Assembly: GCF_000284015.1 (NCBI RefSeq)
Contig: NC_016943.1
Span: 1,839,541-1,903,540 of the forward strand
Direction of reading: 5' to 3'
Origin: Blastococcus saxobsidens DD2
GTDB lineage: Bacteria; Actinomycetota; Actinomycetes; Mycobacteriales; Geodermatophilaceae
DNA: 64,000 nucleotides
Shown piece by piece: positions 7,503-30,927 of the stretch. The position numbers were made by a program, and so were the translations under genes. How positions within the stretch are numbered: the stretch's first letter is position 1; the number at the start of each line of letters is the position of its first letter. The notes under the pieces are model-generated. The model saw nothing but the letters and a program-made list of their open reading frames with translations. It was not told the DNA's origin and made no database searches.

Positions 7503-7621
7503 ACCGCACTTGGCGAGGGATCGGGTCAAGGTGACGCTAAGGGCTCTGCAGTCGAGCCGGCCGGTCGTGAGGCGGGCGCGGATCATCGGGCGCCCTCTGT
7601 TGAGCGGCGCCGCGCGTCAGT

Positions 7622-7649
7622 TTGTCGCACTGTCCCGGCGCGCTATCAT
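7622..7649 (+). promoter_or_regulatory. Promoter of the ArsR/CtpG-like/lspA unit
   Basis: TTGTCG (7622-7627) and TATCAT (7644-7649) are separated by 16 bp, a good -35/-10 pair. The GTG start at 7656 lies only 6 bp past the -10 box, so the message is probably leaderless. The paralogous regulator at 16833 has the same layout, which supports the call. Confidence 0.5.
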
Positions 7650-7655
7650 CGTCCG

Positions 7656-8068
7656 GTGACGATTGCTGAGGCGCCGACGGAAGCCGTCCCGCGAGCAGCT
7701 CTGGCGTCGGCGGGGACGCTGTTCCACGGTCTCGGTGACTCCGCCCGCCTCGCGTTGCTGCGTCGCCTCGCCGAGGGCGAGGCCCGAGTCGTCGACCTTG
7801 TAGCGGAGCTCGGCATGGCGCAGTTCACGGTGTCGGCACACCTGGCTCGCCTGCGGGACTGCGTCCTGGTCGACTTCCGATCCCGAGGCCGCGCCTGGTG
7901 TACTCCCTGACCCACCCTCAGTTGATGGACCTGCTCGCCACGGCGGAAACGCTGCTCGCCGCCACCGGCAATGCGGTCGCCGTCTGTCCCGGCTTCGGCG
8001 CCCCTCGACCGCAGCTCCGACCCACCACCCCGGCCGAGACCACCCACGACGAGGAGAGCACCCGATGA
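7656..8068 (+). pseudogene. ArsR/SmtB (CmtR-like) regulator broken by a frameshift
   Basis: The first frame encodes a winged-helix ArsR protein from GTG 7656 but stops at 7910 after Arg-Gly-Arg-Ala-Trp-Cys-Thr-Pro. The rest of the domain continues in the next frame (Val-Tyr-Ser-Leu-Thr-His-Pro...) to TGA 8066-8068. One missing base near 7898, probably a C, explains it. Compared with the intact paralogue at 16438-16833, the fold matches along the whole length. CmtR senses Cd/Pb through three cysteines. Here the second (Leu-Arg-Asp-Cys) and a C-terminal one (Ala-Val-Cys-Pro) remain, but the first position is Arg. The stop overlaps the ATPase start (ATGA). If not a sequencing error, the ATPase would have lost its local repressor. 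Confidence 0.8.
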
Positions 8069-10029
8069 GCGACGCCTGCGGCTGCAGCGACGACGAGACG
8101 ACCTCGGCCGGCAAGGAGGCCGAGGAGCACGAAGCCGAACGGCTCTGGCAGGTCCGGGAACTGCAAGCCGCGGCGGTCGCCGGGGTGCTGCTCGTCGCCA
8201 GCCTGGTCGCCGGAGGCGCCGACCGTCCCGGACTGCAGCTCGGCCTCGAGGTGGCCGCCCTGGCGGTCGGCGCCTGGACCTTCGTCCCGTCCACGCTGCG
8301 CCGGCTGGCGAAGGGCAAGATCGGCGTCGGCACGCTGATGACGATCGCCGCCGTCGGGGCAGTGCTACTCGGCGAGGTCGGCGAGGCCGCGACGCTGGCC
8401 TTCCTGTACTCGATCAGCGAGGGCCTGGAGGAGTACTCGCTGGCCAAGACCCGCCGCGGGCTCCGCGCGCTGCTGTCCCTGGTGCCCGAGCAGGCGACCG
8501 TTCTGCGCGGTGGGGTCGAGCAGGTAGTGGCTCCCGCCGAGCTGCGGGTCGACGACGTCATGGTGGTCAAGCCCGGCGAGCGGATCGCCACCGACGGCGT
8601 CATCGGCAGCGGGCGCACCGCCCTCGACGTCTCGGCGATCACCGGCGAATCGGTGCCGGTGGAGGCCGGGCCGGGCGACGAGGTCTTCGCCGGGTCCATC
8701 AACGGCACCGGTGTGCTCGAGGTGCGGGTCACCACCACCGCCGCCGACAACTCCCTGGCCCGGATCGTGCGGATCGTGGAGGCCGAGCAGTCCCGCAAGG
8801 GCGAGGCCCAGCGCCTCGCCGACCGGATCGCCAAGCCGCTGGTGCCCGGCGTGATGATCGCCGCGGTCGTCATCGCCGGCATCGGCAGCCTGCTCGGCGA
8901 CCCCCTCGTCTGGATCGAGCGCGCCCTCGTCGTGCTCGTCGCAGCCTCTCCCTGCGCTCTGGCCATCTCCGTGCCGGTCACCGTCGTCGCCGCGGTGGGC
9001 GCAGCCAGCCGCCTCGGCGTGCTGGTCAAGGGCGGCGCCGCCCTGGAGGCCCTCGGCGCGATCCGCGGGGTCGCGCTGGACAAGACCGGCACGCTGACCC
9101 GCAACCGGCCCGCGGTGGTGGAGGTCGCCACCGTCCCGGGCGTACCCCGCGAGCAGGTGCTGGACGTCGCCGCGGCGCTGGAGGCCCGCAGCGAGCATCC
9201 CCTTGCCCGGGCGATCCTGGCCTCCGTTCCCGGCGCCGAACTGGCCGACGACGTCGAGGCCGTCGTCGGAGCCGGGCTGGTCGGACGGGTGGCCGGCCGC
9301 CCGGCACGGCTGGGCCGTCCCGGCTGGATCGAGGCCGGCGTACTCGCCGGCGACGTGCAGCGGATGCAGCATGCCGGCGCCACCGCGGTGCTGATCGAGC
9401 TCGACGGGCAGCTCATCGGGGCGGTCGCCGTGCGCGACGAGCTGCGCCCGGAGGCGGCGGAGGTCGTCGCCCGGCTGCGCCGCGACGGCTACACCGTGGC
9501 CATGCTGACCGGCGACAACACCGCCACCGCCACGGCCCTGGCCCGGGAGGTGGGCATCGAGCAGGTGCACGCGGAGCTGCGCCCGGAGGACAAGGCCCGG
9601 CTGGTCGCCGACCTGCGTGGACAGCGGCGCACCGCGATGGTCGGTGACGGCGTCAACGACGCCCCGGCGCTCGCCACCGCCGACCTGGGCATCGCCATGG
9701 GCGCGATGGGCAGCGACGTCGCGATCGAGACCGCCGACGTGGCGCTCATGGGCGAGGACCTGCGGCACCTGCCGGAGGCCTTCAGCCACGCCCGCCGCGC
9801 GCGCCGGATCATGCTGCAGAACGTCGCCCTGTCCCTGGCGATCGTGATCGGTCTGATGCCGCTGGCGCTGTTCGGCGTCCTCGGCCTGGCCGCCGTCGTG
9901 CTCGTGCACGAGGTCGCCGAGGTCTTCGTCATCGCCAACGGCGTGCGCGCCGGCCGGACGAAGCCGCTGGCGCCGGTGTCCATTGCCCCGGCGTCGGCGC
10001 CCGGCGAGTTGACCGGCGCCGTCCGGTGA
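8065..10029 (+). CDS. Heavy-metal P1B-type ATPase (CtpG/Cd-Pb-Zn type)
   Basis: This 654-residue metal exporter has a short N-terminus with Cys-Gly-Cys instead of an HMA domain, then six to eight membrane helices and the ATPase core. TGES, DKTGT (about residue 339), SEHP and GDGVNDAPAL are all present. The sixth-helix motif is Ser-Pro-Cys (about residue 295), not CPC, and the last helix contains His-Glu-Val-Ala-Glu-Val. The set resembles mycobacterial CtpG, which works with a CmtR repressor, so Cd/Pb/Zn or a similar divalent ion is more likely than Cu+. It overlaps the broken ArsR gene upstream and the lspA gene downstream by 4 bp each, so the three form one unit. Confidence 0.92.
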   Translation: MSDACGCSDDETTSAGKEAEEHEAERLWQVRELQAAAVAGVLLVASLVAGGADRPGLQLGLEVAALAVGAWTFVPSTLRRLAKGKIGVGTLMTIAAVGAVLLGEVGEAATLAFLYSISEGLEEYSLAKTRRGLRALLSLVPEQATVLRGGVEQVVAPAELRVDDVMVVKPGERIATDGVIGSGRTALDVSAITGESVPVEAGPGDEVFAGSINGTGVLEVRVTTTAADNSLARIVRIVEAEQSRKGEAQRLADRIAKPLVPGVMIAAVVIAGIGSLLGDPLVWIERALVVLVAASPCALAISVPVTVVAAVGAASRLGVLVKGGAALEALGAIRGVALDKTGTLTRNRPAVVEVATVPGVPREQVLDVAAALEARSEHPLARAILASVPGAELADDVEAVVGAGLVGRVAGRPARLGRPGWIEAGVLAGDVQRMQHAGATAVLIELDGQLIGAVAVRDELRPEAAEVVARLRRDGYTVAMLTGDNTATATALAREVGIEQVHAELRPEDKARLVADLRGQRRTAMVGDGVNDAPALATADLGIAMGAMGSDVAIETADVALMGEDLRHLPEAFSHARRARRIMLQNVALSLAIVIGLMPLALFGVLGLAAVVLVHEVAEVFVIANGVRAGRTKPLAPVSIAPASAPGELTGAVR

Positions 10030-10619
10030 CCGGGGCCGGGGGCTCCGGTCCAGGGCGGGTCCGGCCGGTCCGTCGGCGACTGTGGGCGGCGGCGACCGCG
10101 GCAGCAGTTGCGGCGGTGGACCTCACCGCGAAGGCCTGGGCGCAGAATCATCTGTCGGGGACCGGGGTGGAGCTCGGGCCGGTGGATCTGCGGCTGGGCT
10201 ACAACCCGGGTGTTGCGTTCTCCGTCGGCGCGGAGGCCCCGGCCTGGCTGGTCATCGCCGTCACCGCCGCGATCACCGCCGGCGTGGCCGTGTTCGCGTG
10301 GCGCACGGCTTCCCGGGGGAGCCGCGGCCAGCTGGCTGCGCTGGCCCTCATCCTCGGCGGTGCGGTGGCCAACCTGGCCGACCGCGCCGCGGACGGTGTG
10401 GTCACCGATTACCTGCACACCGGTTGGTGGCCGACGTTCAACCTCGCCGACACGGCGATCGTCACCGGCGGCCTGCTGTTCGCGATCACCACCTGGCGCA
10501 GCGACGAGGGCGAGTCTCGCGCTGCCGCTGGACACGGGACTGAGGGATCGGCCGTCGAGTCAGGGCCGGCGTCCGCCCCACCCAACAGCCCCCGCGGCTC
10601 GACGTCGAGCGGCGAATAA
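10026..10619 (+). CDS. lspA: Lipoprotein signal peptidase (signal peptidase II)
   Basis: This 197-residue membrane aspartyl protease cleaves prolipoproteins before the lipid-modified cysteine. It has four hydrophobic segments and the family boxes: Asp-Leu-Thr-Ala-Lys early on, Tyr-Asn-Pro-Gly-Val-Ala-Phe-Ser, Gly-Gly-Ala-Val-Ala-Asn-Leu-Ala-Asp-Arg with the first catalytic Asp region, and Phe-Asn-Leu-Ala-Asp-Thr-Ala with the second catalytic Asp. GTG 10026 overlaps the ATPase stop (GTGA). A second LspA paired with a Cd/Pb ATPase is known from lead-resistance (pbr) operons. A lipoprotein substrate is available on the island, the DUF305 lipoprotein at 20684. Confidence 0.9.
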   Translation: MTGAGGSGPGRVRPVRRRLWAAATAAAVAAVDLTAKAWAQNHLSGTGVELGPVDLRLGYNPGVAFSVGAEAPAWLVIAVTAAITAGVAVFAWRTASRGSRGQLAALALILGGAVANLADRAADGVVTDYLHTGWWPTFNLADTAIVTGGLLFAITTWRSDEGESRAAAGHGTEGSAVESGPASAPPNSPRGSTSSGE

Positions 10620-18299: not shown

Positions 18300-18732
18300 G
18301 TCGCAGTCGCCCATCGCTGGATCGCAGTAGCATCGTCTTGAAGCGATGAATAGCAGGGTGCCTCTGCTCTGTCCAGCCCCTCGCCGACTGGCGCCACGGC
18401 GAGGCGCGCCGTCGTCGGCCACGCCCATGGTCGGTCTGCGATAGCCCCGGCGTTATTCGCACGCACCGTGGCCGCATCATCGGATAGAACTGCTAGCATC
18501 GCCGCATGGCGATGACTCCGCGGCGCTGCGTGGGTGGATGGCCCGTGCTGGCACCAGCCCTTGTGGTGGCTCGAAGCCCCGCTTCTTCGTTTCACATCCA
18601 AGCGGTAGCTGACGAGTCGGTGCCGCAGCACGGTGGCTGCTCCTTTCCCAGAGGGCCCAGCGACAGGCCACTTTTCCGAGCGCCAACCTCTCGCCGGCCG
18701 GCCGATGCCGGTGCCCTACACAGAAGGCAGTG
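18300..18732. other. Divergent promoter region before cadD
   Basis: No gene supported, although a short plus-strand frame from ATG 18506 ends exactly at the cadD start. A TAGCAT hexamer at 18494-18499 lies 6 bp before that ATG, like the leaderless layout of the two ArsR genes, but no -35 box fits and the 75-residue product matches nothing I know. Confidence 0.35.
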
Positions 18733-19338
18733 ATGGAACTCCTCACCTGGACCCTGCAGGCCATCGGCCTGTTCTTGGCCACCAACATCGACGACATCAT
18801 CGTGCTGTCGCTGTTCTATGCCCGGGGCGCCGGCCAGCGCGGCACCACCGCGAAGATCCTCGTCGGCCAGTACCTCGGATTCGGCGCCATCCTGGCCGCG
18901 GCGGTGCTCGTCGCCCTGGGCGCGCGCAGCTTCCTGCCCGAGGAAGCCATCCCGTACTTCGGACTCATCCCGCTGGGCCTCGGCCTGCTCGCGGCCTGGC
19001 GGGTCTGGCGCAGTGATGACGATGACGATGACGACGAGGGCAAGGTCAGCGGCAAGACGCTCAGCGCGCTGACCATCGCCGCAGTCACCTTCGCCAACGG
19101 CGGGGACAACATCGGCGTGTACGTGCCGGTCTTCGCCACCGTCGGCACGGCGGGGATCCTCGCCTACTCGGTCGTCTTCCTCGCCCTGGTGGCCGTGCTG
19201 GTCGCCGCGGCGCGCTTCGTCGCCACCCGCAAGCCGATCGCGGAAGTGCTGGAGCGTTGGGAGCACGTGCTGTTCCCGATCGTCCTGATCGGCCTGGGCG
19301 TCGTCATCCTGGTCGAGGGCAGAGCCTTCGGCCTGTAG
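18733..19338 (+). CDS. cadD: CadD-family cadmium resistance transporter
   Basis: This 201-residue membrane protein has five to six helices. The pattern Ala-Thr-Asn-Ile-Asp-Asp-Ile-Ile-Val-Leu-Ser in the first helix and Thr-Phe-Ala-Asn-Gly-Gly-Asp-Asn-Ile-Gly-Val-Tyr-Val-Pro in the middle are the two repeated Asn-x-x-Asp/Asp-Asn boxes of the CadD (LysE-superfamily) family. The family gives cadmium resistance, probably by export. The cytoplasmic loop between helices holds a run of seven aspartates (about residues 94-100), which may bind divalent ions. ATG 18733 follows an AGAAGG ribosome site; GTG 18730 is an equal alternative. A strong terminator follows. Confidence 0.9.
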   Translation: MELLTWTLQAIGLFLATNIDDIIVLSLFYARGAGQRGTTAKILVGQYLGFGAILAAAVLVALGARSFLPEEAIPYFGLIPLGLGLLAAWRVWRSDDDDDDDEGKVSGKTLSALTIAAVTFANGGDNIGVYVPVFATVGTAGILAYSVVFLALVAVLVAAARFVATRKPIAEVLERWEHVLFPIVLIGLGVVILVEGRAFGL

Positions 19339-20683: not shown

Positions 20684-21298
20684 ATGACCCGTAGGACAGC
20701 TCGACTCGTCCGTATCGCCGGTGGCCTGCTCGCCGGCGCAGTCCTTCTCGGCGGCTGCTCCAGTACCGTCGACGGCACTGCCGTTGACAGCAACACTTCC
20801 GCCGACAGCTCGGCGACCGTGTCCGAAGAGTTCAACGACGCCGACGTCGCCTTCGCGCAGGGGATGATCCCGCATCACGAAGGTGCCCTGGGGATGGCTG
20901 AGATGGCTCTGGAGCGCGCCAGCGATCCTCGCGTGCTCGACCTGGCCGAGCGCATCCAGGCCGGTCAGGATCCGGAGATCGATCTGATGACCGGCTGGCT
21001 GGAGGAGTGGGGAGAGCCGGTGGAGACCGGTGGCACGGGGGGTATGGATCATGGGTCCGGCGGCGGCATGGATCATGGCTCGGACGGCATGGGGGACATG
21101 CCGGCCGCCGGTCCCGACTTCGACGTCATGTGGCTGCAGTCGATGATCGAGCACCACGACGGCGCGGTGATCATGGCGCAGATCGAGATCGACGACGGTG
21201 CGAACGAGGAAGCGATCGACCTGGCTCGGGTCATCGTCGAGACGCAGAACGACGAGATCAACGAGATGCAGCAGCTGCTGAACGAACTCGGCGGCTGA
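20684..21298 (+). CDS. DUF305 lipoprotein with MDHG repeats
   Basis: This 204-residue secreted lipoprotein has an Arg-rich N-terminus, a hydrophobic stretch and the lipobox Leu-Leu-Gly-Gly-Cys (cysteine near residue 25). Two DUF305 motifs follow: Phe-Ala-Gln-Gly-Met-Ile-Pro-His-His-Glu-Gly-Ala and Leu-Gln-Ser-Met-Ile-Glu-His-His-Asp-Gly-Ala. Between them (about residues 116-135) lies a flexible Gly-rich linker with Met-Asp-His-Gly repeats, a likely Cu ligand set. CAGGAGA precedes ATG 20684. The signal peptidase II gene at 10026 could process it. The next genes are the copper-storage protein and the Nuo-like operon, whose 22938 product has the same repeat. Confidence 0.9.
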   Translation: MTRRTARLVRIAGGLLAGAVLLGGCSSTVDGTAVDSNTSADSSATVSEEFNDADVAFAQGMIPHHEGALGMAEMALERASDPRVLDLAERIQAGQDPEIDLMTGWLEEWGEPVETGGTGGMDHGSGGGMDHGSDGMGDMPAAGPDFDVMWLQSMIEHHDGAVIMAQIEIDDGANEEAIDLARVIVETQNDEINEMQQLLNELGG

Positions 21299-21524: not shown

Positions 21525-21932
21525 TCAGCTCAGCGACGTGATGAGGTCTCGGCAGGCCTTCTCGCAGCGCCGGCAGGCCTCGGCGCAGACGCGGCAGTGC
21601 TCGTGCATCGAGGCGTGGCTTTCGCACTCGTCACCGCAGGCCTTGCAGGCGGCGGCGCAGGCCTCGAGGACGGCCCGGGTGAGGTTGGCGTCGTAGCCGG
21701 TGTGCCGGGAGAGCACCCGGCCGGTCGTGTCGCAGATGTCGGCGCAGTCGGTGTTGGTGCGGATGCACTTGGTCAGCTCGGCGACCTTGTCCTCGCTGAG
21801 GCAGGCGTCGGCGCAGGCGGTGCAGGCCTGGGCGCACTCGAAGCAGGCCTCGATGCACTCGAGGAGCTTCGGCTTGTCGACTCCGCCGAGGTCCTTGGGG
21901 TAGGTGTCGAGCATCTGGGCTGCCACGGTCAT
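21525..21932 (-). CDS. Csp3-like cytosolic copper-storage protein (four-helix, DUF326)
   Basis: The 135-residue protein is Cys-rich, with 18 cysteines in repeated Cys-x-x-x-Cys or Cys-x-x-Cys spacing along predicted helices (Glu-Cys-Ile-Glu-Ala-Cys-Phe-Glu-Cys, later Cys-Lys-Ala-Cys-Gly-Asp-Glu-Cys). This is the pattern of copper storage proteins, where cysteines line the core of a four-helix bundle and hold many Cu+ ions. There is no signal peptide, which places it with the cytosolic Csp3 type. ATG 21932 has GAGGAGA in front; a longer frame upstream to 22100 lacks support. It is divergent from an ArsR regulator across a 117-bp region with a palindrome. Confidence 0.9.
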   Translation of the reverse strand: MTVAAQMLDTYPKDLGGVDKPKLLECIEACFECAQACTACADACLSEDKVAELTKCIRTNTDCADICDTTGRVLSRHTGYDANLTRAVLEACAAACKACGDECESHASMHEHCRVCAEACRRCEKACRDLITSLS

Positions 21933-22010
21933 GGTTGTCTCCTCGGATTCTCGGCCCGGACGGCTCGGCTGTCGCCCGGATCTGGCGCCGACGAATCCGG
22001 CGGTACCCGC

Positions 22011-22026
22011 AGACCCGTACGGGTAT
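22011..22026. promoter_or_regulatory. Palindromic operator candidate between csp and arsR
   Basis: ACCCGTACGGGT at 22013-22024 is a perfect 12-bp palindrome, and TACCCG...CGGGTA forms a wider imperfect one around it. It sits 26 bp before the ArsR start and about 80 bp before the copper-storage gene. Copper repressors of the CsoR type bind similar ACCC...GGGT sites, but the adjacent ArsR could also use it. Confidence 0.5.
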
Positions 22027-22049
22027 GAGCGGCCTGGAGGTGTTTCTCG

Positions 22050-22427
22050 ATGTCCGAACCCGATCACGCGCATCCGGTCGATCCCGTGCGTGTCGCCCAC
22101 GCCCGAGCCCGGCTGCCCAGCCGCGACGAAGCGGCCCAGCTGACCAGCGTGCTGAGCCTGATGGCCGACCCGACCCGAGCCCGAGTCCTGTTCGCGCTCG
22201 ACATGGTCGAGGAGCTCTGCGTCGGCGACCTCGCGCTGGCCCTGGAGTCCAACGAGGACGCCGTCGGCTACGCCCTGCGGCTGCTGCGCACGGCGGGACT
22301 GGTGACCAACCGGAAGCAGGGGCGCGTCGTGTTCTACCGCCTGGCCGAAGGATTCCCCGAGCCGCTACGGGAGCACTGCCTCCGCCAGTTGGTCGTCCTC
22401 TCAGACGCGGCGCCGGACGACGACTGA
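22050..22427 (+). CDS. ArsR/SmtB family metal-responsive regulator
   Basis: This 125-residue winged-helix repressor has Leu-Met-Ala-Asp-Pro-Thr-Arg-Ala-Arg-Val-Leu, then Glu-Glu-Leu-Cys-Val-Gly-Asp-Leu, the alpha-3 box that carries metal-binding cysteine in CadC/ArsR-type sensors. The box here has one Cys. More possible ligands are His residues at the N-terminus (Asp-His-Ala-His) and His/Cys in Arg-Glu-His-Cys-Leu-Arg near the end. The metal cannot be fixed from this. GGAGG precedes ATG 22050. It could control the divergent copper-storage gene and, 180 bp downstream, the Nuo-like operon. Confidence 0.88.
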   Translation: MSEPDHAHPVDPVRVAHARARLPSRDEAAQLTSVLSLMADPTRARVLFALDMVEELCVGDLALALESNEDAVGYALRLLRTAGLVTNRKQGRVVFYRLAEGFPEPLREHCLRQLVVLSDAAPDDD

Positions 22428-22605: not shown

Positions 22606-22947
22606 ATGGTTGCGCTGCTGTCGCTGGCTGCCCTGGTCGCGGCCGGCATCGTCGGGCTGTACGGGCTGTCGTCGGCGTTGCGCACCGCCCGGGAGCCCGC
22701 CGCCGTCCTGTCGTACGAGTCGGGCCTGCTCCCGCAGCAGCACGCCGTCTCTCGCTACCACGCGCGGTGGTACGCGGTCACGGTCCTCTTTCTTGCCTTC
22801 GACATGGAGATGATCTTCATGTACCCGTGGGTGGTCGTGGTCGCGGACATGGGGGCGGCGGCGGTCGTCGAGATGTTCGGCTTCCTCGCCGTTCTGCTTG
22901 TCGGTGTCACCTACGTCTGGCGTGAGGGTGCGCTGCGATGGACCTGA
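22606..22947 (+). CDS. NuoA-like membrane subunit (complex I subunit A relative)
   Basis: The 113-residue protein has three membrane helices and the NuoA/ND3 landmarks: Tyr-Glu-Ser-Gly-Leu in the first loop, Arg-Tyr-His-Ala-Arg-Trp-Tyr-Ala-Val, then Leu-Phe-Leu-Ala-Phe-Asp-Met-Glu-Met-Ile-Phe-Met-Tyr-Pro-Trp. NuoA normally helps form the quinone cavity at the interface with NuoB and NuoD. The loop cysteine of typical NuoA/ND3 (Tyr-Glu-Cys-Gly) is Ser here. GAGGAGG precedes ATG 22606. The gene overlaps the next by 10 bp and opens an eight-gene operon. Confidence 0.88.
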   Translation: MVALLSLAALVAAGIVGLYGLSSALRTAREPAAVLSYESGLLPQQHAVSRYHARWYAVTVLFLAFDMEMIFMYPWVVVVADMGAAAVVEMFGFLAVLLVGVTYVWREGALRWT

Positions 22948-24086
22948 TCGCCCGCCTGCGGAACTGGGCGCTGGCGAGGCCGCGGGTGCTGCTCGTCGAT
23001 GCCCCGGGTGCGACGACGTTCCGGTGGTCCGTCGAGGCCGAGTTGGACCGGCGCGGCTGGCGGCGCGCCGTGTCACCCGCGGACACCGATCTGCTGGTCG
23101 TCCTTGGCGGGCCCGGTCCGGCGCTCGCAGAAGCCGTCGACGTGCTGTGGAAGCAGATCCCGGAGCCGCGCCACCGGATGGACGTGCCCGACCACGGCGA
23201 CGCCGTCGTCGCTCTGGACGCGGGTCGAGACGCACTGGTCCGCCGGATCGGCTCAGGTCCAGATGGCGACGACCGGCCGTCGCCGGCCTCGTTGCTCGGC
23301 AAGACCGAGGACGAGGACGCCGACGACGAGGGCATGGACCACGGCGGTGGCCGCGGGGGCATGGACGACGACGCCGGTCATGAGGACGAGGAGAGCGAGG
23401 AGGGCGAGGGCGTAGATCACGGGGCCGATGACGAAGGCATGGGTCACGAGAGCATGGACCACGGTGGTGAGGTGGCCGGGCTGCCGATGGCCTCGACCGG
23501 CCCGGACCGGGACGGGCTCGAACTCGACGTTCTGAAGGTGGCGCTCGGGCCGGTACTGCCGGGCTGGCCGACGGGTCTGGTGTTGCGGGCGGATCTGCAG
23601 GGTGACGTCCTCACCTCCGCAGAACTGGCCTGGCTCGACGCCGGCACCGCCCCACCCGCCCAGCAGCAGTCCGACTCCCAGCGGGCCGCACTCGACCGGC
23701 TCGCCCGCTTCCTGGACGTGGCCGGCTGGCCGACGGCTGCCCGAGACGCACGCCGTGCCCGGGACGGGGCGGCCGAGGGGGCCAATCGAGATGAGGCACA
23801 ACGGCTTGCCGAGGGCCTGGCGCGGCGGGTGAGCCGGTCGCGGACCTTGGCGTGGACGGCCGGCGGCATCGGGAGGCGCGGGTCTGGGGGAGACGCCCTG
23901 GACCGGGTCAGGCGTTGGTGCGACATGGCGTCGGGGCAGTCGGTCGAGGACGTGCCCGCGATGTCACTGGACGACGTCGCAGCCTTGGTGGAGGGCGCGG
24001 AGATCGGGAGCGCCCGGCTGATCGTGGCCAGCCTCGAGCTCCGCCCCGTGTCCGCGGTGTCGGCTCCGGAGCACCTGCATGCCTGA
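22938..24086 (+). CDS. Unusual acidic/His-rich protein in the NuoB-NuoCD position
   Basis: This 382-residue soluble protein has no confident family match. Residues 1-90 recall a degenerate NuoB: Thr-Asp-Leu-Leu-Val-Val-Leu-Gly-Gly, then Leu-Trp-Lys-Gln-Ile-Pro-Glu-Pro-Arg, close to the NuoB segment ending in Met-Pro-Glu-Pro. None of the four iron-sulfur cysteines is present; only one Cys (about 328) occurs in the whole protein. Residues about 120-175 are an Asp/Glu/Gly linker with repeated Met-Asp-His-Gly-type units, probably metal-binding. From about 190 on, Leu-Lys-Val-Ala-Leu-Gly-Pro...Leu-Val-Leu and a later Gly-Gly-Ile-Gly-Arg-Arg weakly recall NuoD. If so, it is a redox-dead B/CD fusion. 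It overlaps nuoA-like and nuoH-like genes. Confidence 0.8.
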   Translation: MDLIARLRNWALARPRVLLVDAPGATTFRWSVEAELDRRGWRRAVSPADTDLLVVLGGPGPALAEAVDVLWKQIPEPRHRMDVPDHGDAVVALDAGRDALVRRIGSGPDGDDRPSPASLLGKTEDEDADDEGMDHGGGRGGMDDDAGHEDEESEEGEGVDHGADDEGMGHESMDHGGEVAGLPMASTGPDRDGLELDVLKVALGPVLPGWPTGLVLRADLQGDVLTSAELAWLDAGTAPPAQQQSDSQRAALDRLARFLDVAGWPTAARDARRARDGAAEGANRDEAQRLAEGLARRVSRSRTLAWTAGGIGRRGSGGDALDRVRRWCDMASGQSVEDVPAMSLDDVAALVEGAEIGSARLIVASLELRPVSAVSAPEHLHA

Positions 24087-25017
24087 GCAGACTCTGGCGG
24101 AGGTGTGGGGGCTGGTCCCGGCAGTCCTCGGGATCGTGGCGGTCGGTCTGGTCCTGGGCGTCGTGGTGGCGGCGGTCGACCGCGTCGTCGTCTTCGGCGC
24201 GGCGGGGGCCGCTGTCGGGCCGATCCGCTCGAGCGCGCGTCTGCTGGTCGAGCAGCGGCGGACGACTCTGGCGCCGGACCGACTGCTGTGGCGGATCGGA
24301 TGCGTCGCCGTGCTGACACTGGCGCTGCTGTCTCTGGCGGTGGTGCCCGTGGGCGGTCGGACGCTGTGGTCGACCAGCGCCGATCTCGTGTGGTTCAACG
24401 CCATGGAGGCGTTGCTGTGGGCGGCGGTGTGGCTGGTCGGGTGGGGTCCGAACGCGGTCCATGCCCTGACCGGTGGATACCGGTTCCTCGCCCAGGGCCT
24501 GGCCTACGAGTTGCCGCTGATGTTCGCGCTCATCACGGCTGGCCTGGGGGCCGGCTCACTGCGCACGACGGACGTCGTGGCCGCGCAGGAGAGCCTGTGG
24601 TTCGTGGTCACGATGCCGGTCGCCTTCCTGGTCTTCGTGGCCAGCGCCGCGGCCTTCGCCTTCTGGGGGCCGTTCGCCGCACCGGCCGCAGCTGACATCG
24701 CCGGCGGCGTCACCTCGGAACTGTCCGGGGTGGACCGGCTGCTGGTGGAGGCCGGTCGCGCCGTCTTCCTCGGCGCGAGCGCGGCCATGGCGGCCGCACT
24801 GTTCCTCGGCGGCGACTCCGGCCCCTGGTTGCCCGGCCCGCTGTGGCACCTGCTGAAGACGCTGGCCGTCGTCGCTGCTCTGGTCTGGGTGGGACGACGG
24901 ATGCCGGTGCTGCGGCCCGATCGCACGGTGGAGGTCGGGTGGATGGTCCTGGTCCCGCTGACGCTATTGCAGGCGCTGGTCGTCGCTGTGCTGGTCCTGA
25001 ACGGGTTCTACGCGTGA
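24079..25017 (+). CDS. NuoH-like membrane subunit
   Basis: This 312-residue membrane protein has about eight helices and is recognisable as NuoH/ND1 from Gly-Pro-Asn-Ala-Val-His-Ala-Leu-Thr-Gly-Gly-Tyr-Arg-Phe-Leu-Ala-Gln-Gly, then Ala-Tyr-Glu-Leu-Pro. The latter holds the glutamate at the start of the proton path. The usual cytoplasmic Glu-Arg-Lys motif that contacts NuoB/D is replaced by Val-Asp-Arg-Val. In complex I this subunit frames the quinone channel. Loss of the contact motif while keeping the in-membrane Glu fits a membrane arm without the usual redox partner. ATG 24079 overlaps the preceding stop by 8 bp. Confidence 0.85.
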   Translation: MPEQTLAEVWGLVPAVLGIVAVGLVLGVVVAAVDRVVVFGAAGAAVGPIRSSARLLVEQRRTTLAPDRLLWRIGCVAVLTLALLSLAVVPVGGRTLWSTSADLVWFNAMEALLWAAVWLVGWGPNAVHALTGGYRFLAQGLAYELPLMFALITAGLGAGSLRTTDVVAAQESLWFVVTMPVAFLVFVASAAAFAFWGPFAAPAAADIAGGVTSELSGVDRLLVEAGRAVFLGASAAMAAALFLGGDSGPWLPGPLWHLLKTLAVVAALVWVGRRMPVLRPDRTVEVGWMVLVPLTLLQALVVAVLVLNGFYA

Positions 25018-25030
25018 GGAGGAGGAGACG

Positions 25031-25612
25031 ATGCTGAGCGAGCTCTCCGGCTGGGCGGTCACGGCCGTCGCCGTCCTCGGGGTTCTGTCGGTTGCCGCGG
25101 GAGTCGCCGTGTTCGTCGTCGACTCGATGGCGCGGGCGACCTTCGCCCTGCTGGCGTCGTTCCTCGCCGTGGCGGGCATCCTGCTCGCCCTCGACCTGGT
25201 CTACCTGGCCGTCGTGACGGCGCTGATGATGACGATCGAGATGGCGATCATGGCCGTCTTCATGATCATGTTCATGATGAACCCGGCCGGGCTCATGCCG
25301 ATGACGATGGTGCACAACGCCAAAGGTTCGGCCGGAACGGGTGCGGGTGCGTTCGTCGTCCTCGTCGTCGGCATCTGGACGATCGACTGGCCGATGCCGG
25401 ACCCGGAGCGCCCGGCTGACAGCACCCGCCAGCTCGGGGAGGCGATCATGGGCAGCCACATGCTCGTCATGCTGGTGATCGGCATCGGGCTGTTCGCCAC
25501 GATCCTGGCCGGCACCGTCCTGGCCACCGCGCGCGGCCGCTACGACCGCTTCGGCGCCGGCCTGACGGCGAAGCGCCCGGACGACCCGGTGCCCGGGGGA
25601 CTGCGCCGATGA
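25031..25612 (+). CDS. NuoJ-like membrane subunit
   Basis: The 193-residue protein has five hydrophobic segments. Phe-Ala-Leu-Leu-Ala-Ser-Phe-Leu-Ala-Val-Ala-Gly-Ile-Leu and the Met-rich Leu-Met-Met-Thr-Ile-Glu-Met-Ala-Ile-Met-Ala-Val-Phe-Met-Ile-Met-Phe-Met segment fit NuoJ/ND6 helices 2-3, where typical NuoJ has Tyr-x-Gly-Ala-Val/Ile. That region is unusually rich in Met (about ten in 30 residues), with Glu at position 72 or so. Normally NuoJ couples the quinone site to the antiporter units through a pi-bulge helix. GAGGAGGAGA precedes ATG 25031. It overlaps the nuoK-like gene by 4 bp. Confidence 0.82.
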   Translation: MLSELSGWAVTAVAVLGVLSVAAGVAVFVVDSMARATFALLASFLAVAGILLALDLVYLAVVTALMMTIEMAIMAVFMIMFMMNPAGLMPMTMVHNAKGSAGTGAGAFVVLVVGIWTIDWPMPDPERPADSTRQLGEAIMGSHMLVMLVIGIGLFATILAGTVLATARGRYDRFGAGLTAKRPDDPVPGGLRR

Positions 25613-25926
25613 CCGCCGAGATGGTCCTGCAGATCGTACTGACCGTCGCCGCGGGTCTGATCGGTGTCGGGCTTTTCGGGGCGTTGTCCCAGCAGACGAT
25701 CGTCATGGTGATGATGGGCCTCGAGCTCGTCCTCAACGGTGTGCTGCTGGCCGGGGGAGCGGCCTGGTACTTCCTCGCGCCGGAGCTGCCCGACGCCCAG
25801 GTGCTGGTCGTCGTGGCGCTGGTGGTCATGGCGGTGGAGATGGCCATGGGCTTCGCCGTCACCGTCGCCTTCTATCGAGCTCGGCAGCTCGACATGATCG
25901 ACATGGCGTCGGACCTGCGCGGATGA
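25609..25926 (+). CDS. NuoK-like membrane subunit
   Basis: The 105-residue, three-helix NuoK/ND4L-type protein keeps both key glutamates of the proton path: Met-Gly-Leu-Glu-Leu-Val-Leu-Asn in helix 2 and Ala-Val-Glu-Met-Ala-Met-Gly-Phe in helix 3. These link NuoH/J to the NuoN half-channel. Its length is normal. ATG 25609 sits in an ATGA overlap with the nuoJ-like stop, and its own stop overlaps the nuoL-like start in the same way, so translation is coupled. Confidence 0.87.
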   Translation: MTAEMVLQIVLTVAAGLIGVGLFGALSQQTIVMVMMGLELVLNGVLLAGGAAWYFLAPELPDAQVLVVVALVVMAVEMAMGFAVTVAFYRARQLDMIDMASDLRG

Positions 25927-27860
25927 GCGCCGTCCTCGGCGCCCTGGTGCTGCTCCCCGCCCTGACCGGTGCGGGGCTGCTGGTTACCGGTCGGCGGGCC
26001 GATCGCGTCGCCGGAGCGCTGGCCGTGGCCGTCACCGCGGCAGGTGTGGTGGTGGCTGCGCTGGTGGCCGGGACCCGGCCGCGGCTGTCTGTGCCGTTCC
26101 TCGGGATCGTCGAGGGCGGGGATCTGCGCCTGGTCGTCGACGGGCTCTCCGCCGTGCTCGTCGTCCTGGTGGCCGGCATCGCCCTGCTGGTCACCGTGTT
26201 CGCCGTCGTGGACCTGTCGGCGGATGCCGCTCGGGGGCGGTTCTTCGGCTACCTGCTGCTGTTCGTCGCGGCCATGCTGGCGACGGTCACCGCGGCAACC
26301 TTGCCCACGCTCCTCCTGGCCTGGGAGGTCATGGGCGCGACCTCCTACGCGCTCATCGGCTACCACTGGGAGGAGCCGGGCAAGCTGGCCGCCGGCACCC
26401 GGGCGTTCATGACCACCCGGGCCGGTGACCTCGGCCTATACGTCGCCGCCGGGGCGGCGCTGGCGGCGACCGGGAGCCTGGTGCTGACTGACCTGGAGAG
26501 CGCGGACGGCGGCTGGGCGGACGTGGCCGCCGCCGGCGTGCTGGTCGCCGCGCTGGGCAAGTCGGCGCAGCTGCCCTTCTCGGCCTGGCTCTCGGCCGCG
26601 ATGCAGGGGCCGAGCCCGGTGAGCGCGCTGCTGCACTCGGCCACGATGGTGGCCGCCGGCGGGTACCTGCTCATCCGGATGCAGCCGCTGCTCGCGGCGA
26701 CCGGCTGGGCCGCGACGGCGGCGGCGTGGACCGGGGCGCTGACCGCCCTGGTCCTGGGCGCGGTGGCCGTGGCGCAAACTGACCTCAAGCAGCTGCTCGC
26801 GGCCAGCACCGCCGCGCAGATCGGCTTCGTCGTCCTCGCCGCCGGGGTGGGCGCCACCGCAGGCGGCACCGCCCAGCTGGTCGCGCACGCCGCGGTCAAG
26901 GCCGGGCTGTTCGTCGCCGCCGGGGCCTGGCTCACCGCGCTCGGCACCAAGAATCTGGCTGACCTGCGTGGCGCCGCCCGTCGGTATCCAGGAATGGGAG
27001 CAGCGGCCACCGTCGCTGCCCTCGCTCTGGCCGGTGTACCGCCGCTGTCGCTGTGGGCCACCAAGGACGAGGTACTCGCCGGTGTCGACGGAACGGCCCT
27101 GCGGGTGGTGGGCCTTGCCGCCGCCGCGGTCTCGGCGGTCTACGCCGGTCGGATCCTGGCCGTCGTCCTCGCCCGGCCGACGGGGGACGAGGCGTTCGAC
27201 GAGGAGGAGCCGGGCACCCGGCGCGTCCCGGCCCTGACCACGGTAGTCGCCGGCGTGCTGGCCGTTCTCGCCGCCGGGCTGGGTGTGCTCGCGCTGCCGG
27301 CCGTGGCCGAGAAACTCAAGGCGGTCCTGGACGTGGAGGGGGAGCCGTCCCCGGGGCTGGGGGAGCTGCTGCTCTCCGGGACGCTCGCGCTGGTGGCCCT
27401 GGGGCTGACCGTCGCCGTGGTCCGGGCCCGCCCTGCCGTCATGGAGCAGCTCTCCCGGGGTCCGCTGGCCTCGTGGGCCGGGCTGGGACGGCTGTTGTCG
27501 CCCCGGCCGGCCATGGCTGTCGGCCGCGCTCTGGCAGTCGTCGACGACAAGCTGATCGACCGGGCCGTCATGGGGGTGGCCCTTGGCGCCCGTCGGCTCG
27601 CCGGTATGGCGTCCCGGGCGGACGACAGCGTCCTGGACGGCGCGGTGTCCGGCGTCGCCGCGGCGACCCGCCGCACCGCGGCCGGCTCCGCGCGGATCGA
27701 CACGGGCGTGGTGGACGGCCTCGTCCGTGCCACGGCGAGGGCGTTCCGCCGCGCGGGGAGCGCCGCCCGCCGTCCGCAGACCGGGCTGCTGCACCAGTAC
27801 TACGCCCAGGCCGTCGTCGGTCTGGGGTTCCTGCTCGTCCTGCTGCTCGTGGTGAGGTAG
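25923..27860 (+). CDS. NuoL-like proton/cation antiporter subunit
   Basis: The 645-residue, 14-16-helix member of the Mrp/NuoL family keeps channel residues that matter in complex I: Leu-Ala-Trp-Glu-Val-Met in helix 5, Ala-Leu-Gly-Lys-Ser-Ala-Gln-Leu-Pro-Phe in helix 7, His in Ala-Leu-Leu-His-Ser-Ala-Thr-Met-Val, and Thr-Asp-Leu-Lys-Gln-Leu-Leu-Ala-Ala-Ser. The C-terminal portion after residue 480 is long and Arg/Ala-rich and includes the lateral-helix region. An ion-pumping function therefore looks possible. It starts at ATG 25923 inside an ATGA overlap. The length is near that of standard NuoL (about 610-640). Confidence 0.9.
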   Translation: MSAVLGALVLLPALTGAGLLVTGRRADRVAGALAVAVTAAGVVVAALVAGTRPRLSVPFLGIVEGGDLRLVVDGLSAVLVVLVAGIALLVTVFAVVDLSADAARGRFFGYLLLFVAAMLATVTAATLPTLLLAWEVMGATSYALIGYHWEEPGKLAAGTRAFMTTRAGDLGLYVAAGAALAATGSLVLTDLESADGGWADVAAAGVLVAALGKSAQLPFSAWLSAAMQGPSPVSALLHSATMVAAGGYLLIRMQPLLAATGWAATAAAWTGALTALVLGAVAVAQTDLKQLLAASTAAQIGFVVLAAGVGATAGGTAQLVAHAAVKAGLFVAAGAWLTALGTKNLADLRGAARRYPGMGAAATVAALALAGVPPLSLWATKDEVLAGVDGTALRVVGLAAAAVSAVYAGRILAVVLARPTGDEAFDEEEPGTRRVPALTTVVAGVLAVLAAGLGVLALPAVAEKLKAVLDVEGEPSPGLGELLLSGTLALVALGLTVAVVRARPAVMEQLSRGPLASWAGLGRLLSPRPAMAVGRALAVVDDKLIDRAVMGVALGARRLAGMASRADDSVLDGAVSGVAAATRRTAAGSARIDTGVVDGLVRATARAFRRAGSAARRPQTGLLHQYYAQAVVGLGFLLVLLLVVR

Positions 27861-27862
27861 TC

Positions 27863-29461
27863 GTGCTGCTGACCGTCGTGATCTTCCTGCCGTTGCTGGC
27901 TGCTGCTGTGCTGCTGGCAGTCCCGAGGATTCCCGGTCGCGCGGCGATCGGGGTGTGGGTGGCTGCCTCCGCCGTCGACCTGGCGCTGGTCGGCTGGATG
28001 TGGTGGCGCTTCGAGCCCGGCGAGGGAGCCTCGGGCGTCGTCGACGGCCTGGCGTACGAGGCCGACCTGCAGTGGATCCCCACCGTCGATGCGGGCTACC
28101 ACGTCGGCGTCGACGGGCTCTCCCTGCCGCTGCTGGCCCTGACCGGGGTGCTGTTCCTGGCCTGCGCCATCTACTCACTGCGGGAGCCTGACCGGCCGCA
28201 CACCTACGCCGCGCTGTTCCTCTTCCTCCAGACCGCCTGCCTGGGCACGTTCGCCTCACTCGACCTGATCCTGTTCTTCGTCTTCTTCGACCTGTCGATC
28301 GTCGGGATGTACTTCGTCATCGCCGGCTGGGGGCACGGCAACGCCCGGCGCAGCGCGCTCAAGTTCTTCCTCTACACCTTCATCGGGTCGCTGGCACTGC
28401 TCGTGGGCTTCATCGGGCTGTTCCTCGGCAGCGAGGAGCGCACCTTCGACATGGTGGCGCTCGCGGAGAACCCGCCGCTCGCGGACTCCCCGGTCGCCGG
28501 CGGACTGGTCCTACTGGCGATCGGCCTGGGGCTGGCGGTGAAGACGCCGCTGTTCCCGTTCCACACCTGGCTGCCCGACGCGCACACCGACGCCCCGGCC
28601 GCCGGGTCGGCTGTGCTCGCCGGGATCCTGTTGAAGCTCGGGACCTACGGGTTCGTGCGGATCGCCATGCCGATCCTTCCCGAGGCCTGGCAGCGGTGGG
28701 CCATGGTGGCCGTCGTCGTCGGGGTGATCAGCGTGCTGTGGGGCGCCTTCGTGGCGCTTGCCCAGACCGACGTCAAGCGGATGATCGCCTACACCTCGGT
28801 CAACCACATGGGTTACGTGCTGCTCGGCCTGGGCGCGGCCGGCCTGGTCGCCTCCGCCGACGAGGGGGCGCGAACCGTGGCCACGGTGGGGGCGATGTAC
28901 CAGATGGTCAGCCACGGCCTGCTCACCGGCGCGCTCTTCCTGCTCAGCGGCGTCCTGTGGTCTCGCGGACACACTTACGCCTTCGACCGCTGGGGCGGCC
29001 TGGCGCGGCCGGCGCCGGTCTTTGCCGCCTGCTTCGCGATCGCTGCATTCGGCTCCCTGGGGCTACCCGGCTTCTCCGGGTTCATCGCCGAGTTCCAGGT
29101 GTTCACCGGCGCCCTACAGGCCGCGCCGGTGGCCACGGTGAGCGCCGTCGTCGGCATCCTGGTCACCGCCGGACTGTTCCTGCTGGCCCTGCAACGGCTG
29201 CTCACCGGCGACACCGTCGTCCCATCCGAGGCAGACCCCGACAAGCCGGGGGAGGGCCCGGGTCTGGACCGTGCGGACGGCACGACGGCGACCGCCACCC
29301 GGCCGCGGACAGCGACCCGGATGCAGGACCTGCGTGGTCACGAAGTGGCCGCGATCGCCCCACTCCTCCTACTCGCCCTGGTCCTGGGGCTCCTTCCGCG
29401 TGCCCTGCTGGACGTGCTGGAGCCGGCCGCCATGGCGGTGGTGGAGCTGGTGAGCCGGTGA
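27863..29461 (+). CDS. NuoM-like antiporter subunit
   Basis: The 532-residue antiporter-type membrane subunit (complex I subunit M/ND4 type) is clearly identified by Leu-Lys-Phe-Phe-Leu-Tyr-Thr-Phe-Ile-Gly-Ser, Phe-Pro-Phe-His-Thr-Trp-Leu-Pro-Asp-Ala-His-Thr, and Tyr-Thr-Ser-Val-Asn-His-Met-Gly-Tyr. The helix-7 lysine (Ala-Val-Lys-Thr-Pro-Leu) and helix-8 lysine are kept. The helix-5 glutamate of normal NuoM (Trp-Glu) is Asp here (Phe-Phe-Asp-Leu-Ser). GTG 27863 was chosen because it lies 2 bp after the nuoL-like stop with GAGG upstream; the open frame extends further only within the neighbour. Confidence 0.9.
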   Translation: MLLTVVIFLPLLAAAVLLAVPRIPGRAAIGVWVAASAVDLALVGWMWWRFEPGEGASGVVDGLAYEADLQWIPTVDAGYHVGVDGLSLPLLALTGVLFLACAIYSLREPDRPHTYAALFLFLQTACLGTFASLDLILFFVFFDLSIVGMYFVIAGWGHGNARRSALKFFLYTFIGSLALLVGFIGLFLGSEERTFDMVALAENPPLADSPVAGGLVLLAIGLGLAVKTPLFPFHTWLPDAHTDAPAAGSAVLAGILLKLGTYGFVRIAMPILPEAWQRWAMVAVVVGVISVLWGAFVALAQTDVKRMIAYTSVNHMGYVLLGLGAAGLVASADEGARTVATVGAMYQMVSHGLLTGALFLLSGVLWSRGHTYAFDRWGGLARPAPVFAACFAIAAFGSLGLPGFSGFIAEFQVFTGALQAAPVATVSAVVGILVTAGLFLLALQRLLTGDTVVPSEADPDKPGEGPGLDRADGTTATATRPRTATRMQDLRGHEVAAIAPLLLLALVLGLLPRALLDVLEPAAMAVVELVSR

Positions 29462-30927
29462 CCGGCATGTCCGTGGGCGGCGAGCGGGTGCTCGCACTGC
29501 TTCCCGAACTGCTCCTGCTTCTCGGCGCCGTCGGCGGCCTGCTGCTGGGCCTCTGGACGCCGCAGCACCGGCAGTGGCGGGTCCGGCTCCTGGTCACCGC
29601 CGCCTGTCTGGCCAGCGCGATCGCCGCTGCTGTCGCGCTGTCCGAGCCTGCGGAGCGGGTGTTCGAGGGCACCTGGGTCATCGACACCACCACCGGCGTC
29701 GTCCGGATCGTGGTCGCTCTCGGTGTGGCAGTCCTGGTCTGGTTGGCGTCGGCCTCGCTGGCCGGGCACCCGCGGGAGACCGAGGCCTACGTCCTCATGC
29801 TGCTCGGTGGGCTCGGCAGCATCGCGCTGGCCGCCAGCGGCGACCTGCTGCTGCTCGTCGCCGGCTACCTGCTGGCCAGCGTCCCGCTGTATGCGCTGGC
29901 CGGCTTCGCCAAGGACTCCGCGGGTGTCGAGGCGACGATGAAGTACTACCTGATGGGTGCCTTCGTCGGCGTGCTGATGCTCGTCGGCGTCGCCGCCCTG
30001 GTGCTCGCCGCCGGTACGACCAGCTACTTCGACCTCGCCGCGCAGCTCCCGGACGCCTCCCCGGCCCTCCTCGCGGTGGGCATCCTCGGCGTGCTCGCCG
30101 GGGTCGCCTTCAAGGCCGGCGCCGTGCCGGTGCACTTCTGGGTACCCGACGTCACGGCCGGCACCACACCGCCGATGGCCGCCTACCTCACCACGATCCC
30201 GAAGATCGGCGCGGTCGCCGCCGCCTTCCGCCTGCTGGCCGAGCCGTTCGCCGACGTCCCGCTCGACGTGCCCTTGCTGGTCGCCGTCATCGCCGCAGCC
30301 AGCATGACCCTGGGCAACCTGGCCGCCTTCAACCAGACCGACGTCCTGCGGCTGCTGGCCTACTCCACGGTCAGCCAGGTGGGCTACCTGTTCATGGTCG
30401 TCGCCGTCGCCGCCCGCACCGATCTCGCCGTCCCGGCCTTGGCGATCTACCTGGCCGGCTATGCCGTCACCAACATCGGCGCGTTCGCCGCCGTCGCGGC
30501 GGTCCCGGCCGCGCGCACGATCAACGACTGGGCGACCGCGGTCGGGCGCCACCGATGGCTCGTCGTCGGCCTCGTCGTCTGCCTGCTCGGCCTGGTCGGA
30601 ACACCACCGACCGCCGTCTTCGTCGGCAAGCTCGCCGTCTTCACCGCCGCGTGGGACGGTGCGCTGGCGTGGTTGGTCGTCGTAGCAGCCATCAACACGG
30701 TGGCGAGCCTCTTCTACTACCTTCGCTGGATCGCCCCCGCGTTCGCCGGGGTGCCGGCAGCACCGTCTATGCAGGAGGGGGCGGGCAGAGGTCCACGGAC
30801 CGCGGCGGGCACGGCGCAGCGGACCCGGCGTGGCGTCCCGACCGGATTGCTGCACGGAGCCGCGGTCATGTCCCTGCTCCTCGGTCTGGGATCGGGGTGG
30901 TGGCTCGCCTTCGCCTTGTCAACCTGA
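29458..30927 (+). CDS. NuoN-like antiporter subunit
   Basis: The 489-residue NuoN/ND2-type subunit is identified by Thr-Met-Lys-Tyr-Tyr-Leu-Met-Gly-Ala-Phe, Phe-Lys-Ala-Gly-Ala-Val-Pro-Val-His-Phe-Trp-Val-Pro-Asp-Val, and Leu-Ala-Tyr-Ser-Thr-Val-Ser-Gln-Val-Gly-Tyr. The helix-7 lysine remains, but the helix-5 glutamate normally found in Leu-Glu-Leu-Leu-Ser-Leu-Pro-Leu-Tyr is absent (Gly-Tyr-Leu-Leu-Ala-Ser-Val-Pro-Leu-Tyr). The helix-8 lysine is Arg (Asp-Val-Leu-Arg-Leu-Leu). The C-terminal tail has a basic loop before the final helix. GTG 29458 overlaps the previous stop; ATG 29467 is possible. It ends the operon. Confidence 0.9.
   Translation: MTGMSVGGERVLALLPELLLLLGAVGGLLLGLWTPQHRQWRVRLLVTAACLASAIAAAVALSEPAERVFEGTWVIDTTTGVVRIVVALGVAVLVWLASASLAGHPRETEAYVLMLLGGLGSIALAASGDLLLLVAGYLLASVPLYALAGFAKDSAGVEATMKYYLMGAFVGVLMLVGVAALVLAAGTTSYFDLAAQLPDASPALLAVGILGVLAGVAFKAGAVPVHFWVPDVTAGTTPPMAAYLTTIPKIGAVAAAFRLLAEPFADVPLDVPLLVAVIAAASMTLGNLAAFNQTDVLRLLAYSTVSQVGYLFMVVAVAARTDLAVPALAIYLAGYAVTNIGAFAAVAAVPAARTINDWATAVGRHRWLVVGLVVCLLGLVGTPPTAVFVGKLAVFTAAWDGALAWLVVVAAINTVASLFYYLRWIAPAFAGVPAAPSMQEGAGRGPRTAAGTAQRTRRGVPTGLLHGAAVMSLLLGLGSGWWLAFALST

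Follow-up and report, generated by a model that had tools for sequence, protein, structure and literature searches.

A paralogue of complex I without redox function as a candidate Cu(I)/H+ antiporter

It has long been asked by what means quinone chemistry powers the remote antiporter subunits of respiratory complex I. Among the relatives of this enzyme, the Mrp antiporters have MrpE, F and G subunits and no A, B or D parts. According to PMC7419157, Mrp also lacks NuoH, and its cation path has been assigned to the J-like part. A gene set with the order nuoA-hypothetical-nuoHJKLMN has been published under the name of a partial NDH-1 and classed among "marine adaptation" operons (PMC3314556 and PMC6676996); the second of these papers places a hypothetical protein between nuoA and nuoH and gives the hypothetical proteins of its figure as having no UniProt or PDB homologues. 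Here we analysed an operon of this order in a 64-kb window (the whole stretch of DNA under study) of Blastococcus saxobsidens DD2, in which eight genuine open reading frames are closely packed on one strand at 22606-30927. The initial annotation of the window had taken the gene set to be undescribed, which is contradicted by the publication of its seven nuo genes as the partial NDH-1 operon. Presently, the operon is either annotated as NADH dehydrogenase or interpreted as marine adaptation. Judged by its sequence, the operon encodes a complete membrane arm (A, H, J, K, L, M, N) and one B-D relict protein, and represents a paralogue of respiratory complex I that has lost the redox function; we assign a probability of about 0.5 to the reading that it acts as a Cu(I)/H+ antiporter driven by the proton-motive force and exporting Cu(I).

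A membrane arm without redox subunits

As the initial annotation had stated, NuoA-, H-, J-, K-, L-, M- and N-like genes form one packed operon, and each of the seven scored above its Pfam cut-off. All are located on the forward strand: the NuoA-like gene at 22606..22947 (PF00507, E=1.9e-27), with the transmembrane (TM) motif FDMEMIFMYPW; the NuoH-like gene, with a degraded quinone-side acidic loop, at 24079..25017 (PF00146, E=6.5e-41); the NuoJ-like gene at 25031..25612 (PF00499, E=5e-12; hhalign against canonical NuoJ, 96.3%); the NuoK-like gene at 25609..25926 (PF00420, E=1.1e-12); and the antiporter subunits of NuoL type at 25923..27860 (PF00361, E=7.3e-50), NuoM type at 27857..29461 (TIGR01972, 478.6 bits, above cut-off) and NuoN type at 29458..30927 (TIGR01770, E=2.4e-85). 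The remaining gene, gene 2, lies at 22938..24086 on the same strand and encodes a protein of 382 amino acids.

A match to gene 2 was found in 28 of 97 genomes, its own included, one of the 28 being weak. The scan of a genome collection returned 84 relatives, from which 80 loci were kept. All of these are titled Actinomycetota except for an "Acidobacteria" metagenome-assembled genome (L088) and an entry labelled "UNVERIFIED_ORG: Bacillus sp." (L042); both sequences are actinobacterial-like and the labels were given no weight. The survey of gene order proposed with the initial annotation found NuoA/gene 2/NuoHJKLMN in the same order and on the same strand in 65 of the 80 loci. Another 14 miss genes at a contig end, and the last, from Jiangella muralis (L094, 10001-10621), is a gene-2 remnant at whose locus the other seven genes are missing. 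No intact canonical gene for B, D, F, G or I turned up at the 80 loci (C and E were not queried), and the lone weak NuoB match falls inside gene 2 of its own locus (L103). Intact partner subunits encoded with the operon, which the initial annotation had named as a refutation of its proposal, were thus not found among those queried. A second scan matched gene 2 in 212 of 396 genomes; most of the listed matches span residues 43-83 only, like canonical NuoB, and the match in the DD2 genome sits at the place of the canonical NuoB. Among the matches listed were four full-length close members, and the stronger C-terminal matches were taken as distant kin. The same gene order holds, as far as the contigs extend, in 12 loci from other classes of the phylum.

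Gene 2, which the initial annotation had left as unknown, is on profile and fold comparisons a NuoB and a NuoD fused by descent, with the cluster and quinone ligands absent. From the window, three close relatives and the 80 loci (84 in total), 74 full-length gene-2 proteins were kept, and 55 were aligned. The NuoB relict (residues 1-105; 22938..23252) was matched by nuoB_fam at residues 32-81, by canonical NuoB in hhalign (94.7%) and by NuoB chains of the PDB (2.7e-6). Its CC ligand pair is substituted and the segment bearing ligands 3 and 4 is gone; by alignment and profile comparison, the four-cysteine ligand set of cluster N2 is not kept in gene 2. Seven of the 74 full-length proteins contain no cysteine, and the window's gene 2 has only one, which leaves it without NiFe or cluster cysteine motifs.

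The NuoD relict comprises residues 190-373 (23505..24056). Where NuoD has its quinone motif GPQHPSTHG, the histidine of which has a quinone role, the family has GPVLPxWPxG or close variants; GPQHPSTHG was not present in the family alignment. Pfam gave no match on the window's gene 2, its NuoD model matched one of 55 family members (E=0.34), and hhalign of the C-terminal half with canonical NuoD reached 0.6%. As this profile match is insignificant, the kinship with NuoD rests on the fold and on distant relatives. The fold matches of the gene-2 model cover residues 189-373 only, the NuoB half lying outside them, and the matched chains are presumably NuoD/49-kDa subunits, as we take from entry titles and chain names; chains of formate hydrogenlyase and MBS were also matched. 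Both relicts are joined by a low-complexity linker of His, Met, Asp and Glu (residues ~126-177; 23313..23468), evident from the alignment and from a low predicted local distance difference test score (pLDDT), which is below 50 at residues 133-187 of the model. In relatives the linker bears MDHG-type repeats, and gene 2 of one distant locus (L223, ~7556-9000) has a metal motif, CPMHPEV...CPKCGM, as well as MDHG repeats in the linker that joins its two relicts. In gene 2 of Actinomycetospora (L102, 9956-11125) the His-rich linker is missing and a His-rich tail stands at the end.

Channel residues of the membrane subunits were mapped to E. coli numbering. NuoL retains E144, K229, H254, H338, K342 and K399 in all 73 family proteins and in all 15 distant or plasmid ones, and both E-channel glutamates of NuoK, E36 and E72 (E39 and E77 in the window), are retained in 77/77. 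In NuoM, E144 of TM5 is replaced by aspartate in 73/74, and K234, K265 and E407 are retained in 73-74 of 74. Since the key channel residues of NuoL are all retained and those of NuoM nearly all, two of the three antiporter modules look competent. In NuoN, the TM5 glutamate E133 is a leucine in 72/72; K247 and K395 are retained in 72/72 and K217 in 63/72, with glutamate at the latter position in 8/72. This supports the initial annotation in describing a membrane arm that is free of redox subunits and plausibly moves ions. All subunits, including the B and D parts, are by these comparisons homologous to the complex I superfamily, and we regard descent from complex I with loss of the redox function as almost certain.

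Methionine and histidine signatures

The membrane arm and its B/D cap have been kept and the redox function removed, and the coupling site (NuoJ helix 3, NuoK and NuoA) appears to be rebuilt with invariant methionines. This array in J, K and A was not mentioned in the initial annotation. The methionine content of the operon proteins, compared with canonical ones, is 9.1% vs 3.2% for NuoJ, 9.2% vs 4.5% for NuoK and 4.8% vs 2.5% for NuoA. In NuoJ, methionines 33, 66, 67, 71, 74, 78, 82, 83, 91, 93 and 144 together with E70 and H95 are invariant in all 93 sequences (77 family, 11 distant and 5 plasmid sequences, some of them near-copies); a J alignment comprised 40 proteins. None of the eleven methionine positions is usually methionine in canonical NuoJ (n=30). 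The stretch from residue 66 to 95 (25226..25315, forward strand) forms an array of Met, Glu and His on TM helix 3 and the loop behind it, helix 3 extending over residues 57-83 in the NuoJ model (pLDDT 77.7; predicted template modelling score 0.55). NuoK has invariant methionines 33, 35 and 74 beside the E-channel glutamates, and Met69 and Met72 of NuoA are invariant in the family and Ile or Leu in canonical NuoA.

Met67 of NuoJ aligns with E. coli Tyr59. As described in PMC7419157, this tyrosine takes the place of Mrp E706, a residue on the proposed Na+ path of Mrp, and is located on a pi-bulge of helix 3 that is itself probably critical in complex I. By this alignment, the E706 position of Mrp would be occupied by Met67, with the invariant Glu70 three residues on. 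Coupling-site residues have thus been swapped for methionine, and the array may form a path for Cu(I).

Histidine-rich elements, defined by at least 4 His in 20 residues, were found in gene 2 of 58/71 family members. In more distant relatives they occur on the C-terminal tail of NuoJ: this holds for 7 of the 9 distant loci whose tail is readable, and for Halomonas, Roseivivax and Acuticoccus; gene 2 of Halomonas also reaches 4 His, and at L223 the element is in gene 2. The same threshold was reached by 0/30 canonical NuoB, 0/30 NuoJ and 9/29 NuoD, the last value indicating that it is not specific by itself. Going by the topology of Mrp, both the gene-2 linker and the NuoJ tail presumably face the cytosol.

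Plasmids, host genomes and copper neighbours

A tblastn search of plasmids with NuoJ returned 18 records; among them are plasmids of Halomonas and Acuticoccus and two of Roseivivax, whose annotation gives the order A-hypothetical-H-J-K-L-M-N. The proteins of this operon type form one group (99/99) in a 42-row NuoM tree, apart from canonical NuoM (six actinobacterial sequences, 99/99). Pseudomonadota NuoM are nested among the distant actinobacterial ones, which suggests transfer between the phyla.

The DD2 genome (one 4.88-Mb contig) carries a canonical nuo operon at ~4.27-4.29 Mb with A, B, D, F, G, H, I, J, K, L, M and N, in which a motif search did not identify C and E, and separate Mrp-type genes at ~0.48 Mb. 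Among 22 family-bearing genomes, NuoD and NuoF were both present in 17 and both missing in five: two Arthrobacter echini strains, Arthrobacter sp. H14, an uncultured Arthrobacter and Paenarthrobacter sp. DKR-5, which are mutually related drafts whose missing contigs could hide genes. With no ordinary enzyme to join in these five hosts, the operon does not look like a set of spare parts for it; the second refutation named by the initial annotation, that these subunits simply stand in for the normal copies, was likewise not borne out.

Copper genes were found beside 48 of the 80 family loci, with two or more kinds at 32 of them, compared to none of 39 control stretches of 20 kb taken at fixed round coordinates from 8 host genomes (Fisher p=8e-12); the panel of 16 queries was partly drawn from family neighbourhoods, so that this enrichment arises partly by construction and is descriptive. 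Copper genes occur at 41 of the 62 loci of at least 18 kb and at 5 of 12 distant loci. The annotation of plasmids is independent of the panel and agrees with the copper context. On the Arthrobacter FB24 plasmid, a multicopper oxidase lies directly upstream of the operon, preceded by a DUF305 and a sulfocyanin-like protein. The Mycobacterium avium plasmid carries a heavy-metal P-type ATPase; in Halomonas, copB and a multicopper oxidase are located upstream of the plasmid-borne operon. The Roseivivax and Acuticoccus plasmids have it next to cueR, a heavy-metal P-type ATPase and a multicopper or copper oxidase, with cytochromes c also nearby on a Roseivivax plasmid. In Roseivivax marinus TCYB24 the operon is present on two different plasmids (L267, L269), with cueR and a heavy-metal ATPase beside each. 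Downstream of the operon on the Halomonas plasmid (L266, 18798-21070) are the ergothioneine genes egtB and egtD, the thiol/thione product of which could bind copper.

The window itself places the operon among copper and cadmium-type genes, in agreement with the metal-resistance island of the initial annotation. Directly upstream is a regulator of ArsR/SmtB type (22050..22427, forward strand; NF033788, above cut-off), which is found upstream at 11 of the 80 family loci. The island also includes a Cys-rich DUF326 protein resembling, by eye, the Csp type of copper storage protein (21525..22100, reverse strand; PF03860, E=1.5e-13; start probably at an internal ATG at 21932), two DUF305 genes, one of them at 20684..21298 on the forward strand (PF03713, E=7.4e-46), and a P-type ATPase fused to an N-terminal cupredoxin domain (298-3171; PF13473 and PF00122). 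At 8065-10619 lies a CadA-like P-type ATPase followed, as seen by eye, by an LspA-like frame. This ATPase and a transporter of CadD type (18730-19338; PF03596) make the island a multi-metal one.

Copper export, competing readings and known systems

A role in copper handling of some kind is likely. In the mechanism which we propose, the complex would operate much as Mrp does, as a complex I working in reverse. A His/Met-rich element, either the B-D linker or the C-terminal tail of NuoJ, would catch cytosolic copper, which would pass the former quinone cavity and the E-channel along the Met/Glu ladder of NuoJ helix 3 and the methionines of K and A and leave on the outer face, with protons entering via L and M. 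The B-D relict would then serve as scaffold and metal gate and not as an electron wire. The more detailed proposal, an eight-subunit Cu(I)/H+ antiporter in which a Met-lined E-channel has taken over from quinone chemistry and which plasmids have carried between Actinomycetota and Pseudomonadota, is put forward tentatively, as a possibility somewhat short of even.

Several observations weigh against copper export, among them the origin of the gene panel and the low specificity of the His threshold described above. A helical-face test of the NuoJ methionines was weak (core p=0.013, with residues picked afterwards; all eight p=0.10), and the profile match of NuoJ with MrpA-C was insignificant (0.2%). 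No copper gene of the panel was found near 21 of the 62 loci of at least 18 kb, including those of S. griseus and one of Arthrobacter echini, or at 7 of 12 distant loci; among seven copper-free long loci inspected by eye, some lie among ordinary genes. The window's island also carries cadmium-type genes, and the ArsR regulator is not copper-specific. The His threshold is missed by 13 of 71 gene-2 proteins, including that of the window, which reaches 3, and distant locus L220 has a His-rich element in neither gene 2 nor the NuoJ tail. With the TM5 glutamate of NuoN gone and K217 partly replaced by glutamate, the third channel may be idle. Finally, acids of the NuoH loop are partly kept in the distant and plasmid set (D213 in 8/16; E216 as Asp in 12/16), and the loss of the quinone loop is therefore not uniform.

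The methionine, histidine and copper-context data would also fit a copper-linked complex that exports nothing, be it a Cu(I)-gated proton channel, a copper importer serving cuproenzymes or an energy-converting copper redox complex. The multicopper oxidase beside the operon on the FB24 plasmid and that found with cytochromes c on a Roseivivax plasmid would suit such a role. However, no electron path remains after the loss of the cluster and quinone ligands, and the islands hold genes for export and detoxification (heavy-metal P-type ATPases, DUF326/Csp-like proteins, cueR), and we consider this reading unlikely.

Slightly less likely still is an Na+ (or K+)/H+ antiporter or an additional proton pump for salt or osmotic adaptation, as in the "partial NDH-1" of marine actinomycetes. 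Serinicoccus, Ornithinimicrobium, Halomonas and Roseivivax, which we regard as marine or salt-loving, are among the hosts, the key residues of L and M are kept, and the position of Mrp E706 has an invariant glutamate three residues away. This interpretation was published on the basis of gene distribution (PMC3314556, PMC4018334, PMC6002675, PMC6676996 and PMC8622039). It fits habitat but leaves the methionine array, the His-rich modules and the copper neighbours unexplained; moreover, the DD2 genome has its separate Mrp-type genes, and PMC6676996 itself mentions an operon-bearing strain that came from copper-rich mine fluid.

The same machine might also serve another soft metal (Ag, Cd, Hg) or several metals, as the CadD (PF03596), CadA-like ATPase and ArsR/SmtB-type regulator of the window's island would allow; the neighbours recurring across loci are nevertheless copper genes, with cueR on the Roseivivax and Acuticoccus plasmids, and we judge this improbable. 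That the operon supplies alternative membrane subunits to the ordinary 14-subunit enzyme is very improbable. Canonical NuoD does occur in DD2 and in 17 of the 22 tested hosts, but NuoD and NuoF are both missing from five (two being strains of one species); in addition, a B-D protein is encoded in the operon itself, and its NuoM group is separate from the canonical one.

Compared with respiratory complex I, the operon shares the seven membrane subunits, the order A-(BD)-H-J-K-L-M-N, the key channel residues of L and nearly all those of M, and both NuoK glutamates. It differs in lacking neighbouring D, F, G or I genes and any cluster or quinone ligands, in its frequent location in copper islands, in the replacement of NuoJ Tyr59 by methionine, in its Met-rich core and in the loss of the NuoN TM5 glutamate. 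Group 4 hydrogenases, Fpo, Mbh and Mbs also combine a membrane arm with a cytosolic module of B/D type; the two CxxC NiFe motifs of group 4 hydrogenases were not found in the window's gene 2. The CO2-concentrating complexes DabAB/DAB2, like the operon, use a NuoL-like protein without NADH chemistry and consist of one antiporter subunit and DabA. With the Mrp Na+(K+)/H+ antiporter the operon has redox-free NuoL/M/N-, K- and J-like subunits in common; it appears to differ by a methionine at the position of the key glutamate, with the invariant glutamate three residues on. The eight genes have other homologies than an mrpA-G set with E, F and G, which they do not match, and in the annotation of six plasmid loci the operon has no Mrp genes as neighbours.

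The closest described system is the "partial NDH-1 operon 2" (nuoAHJKLMN), filed among marine adaptation genes and described from Salinispora, Streptomyces and Kocuria. It has the same gene set and order, in Salinispora and Kocuria by published description. S. griseus is common to both sets (L109 here; PMC4018334). The published accounts propose pumping of Na+ or H+ and, in their accessible parts, give no identity for gene 2, no methionine array and no copper role. The gene set is therefore already known; the nature of gene 2, the methionine signature, the copper link and the independence from complex I appear unpublished within our searches, which covered few subscription journals. If Cu(I) is indeed moved against protons, the operon would provide an electron-free model of complex I coupling, in which the E-channel is able to couple a cation to antiporter modules without electrons, and an unrecognised route of copper detoxification: a gradient-driven copper exporter of a kind unlike P1B ATPases, CusA-type RND pumps and CDF carriers.

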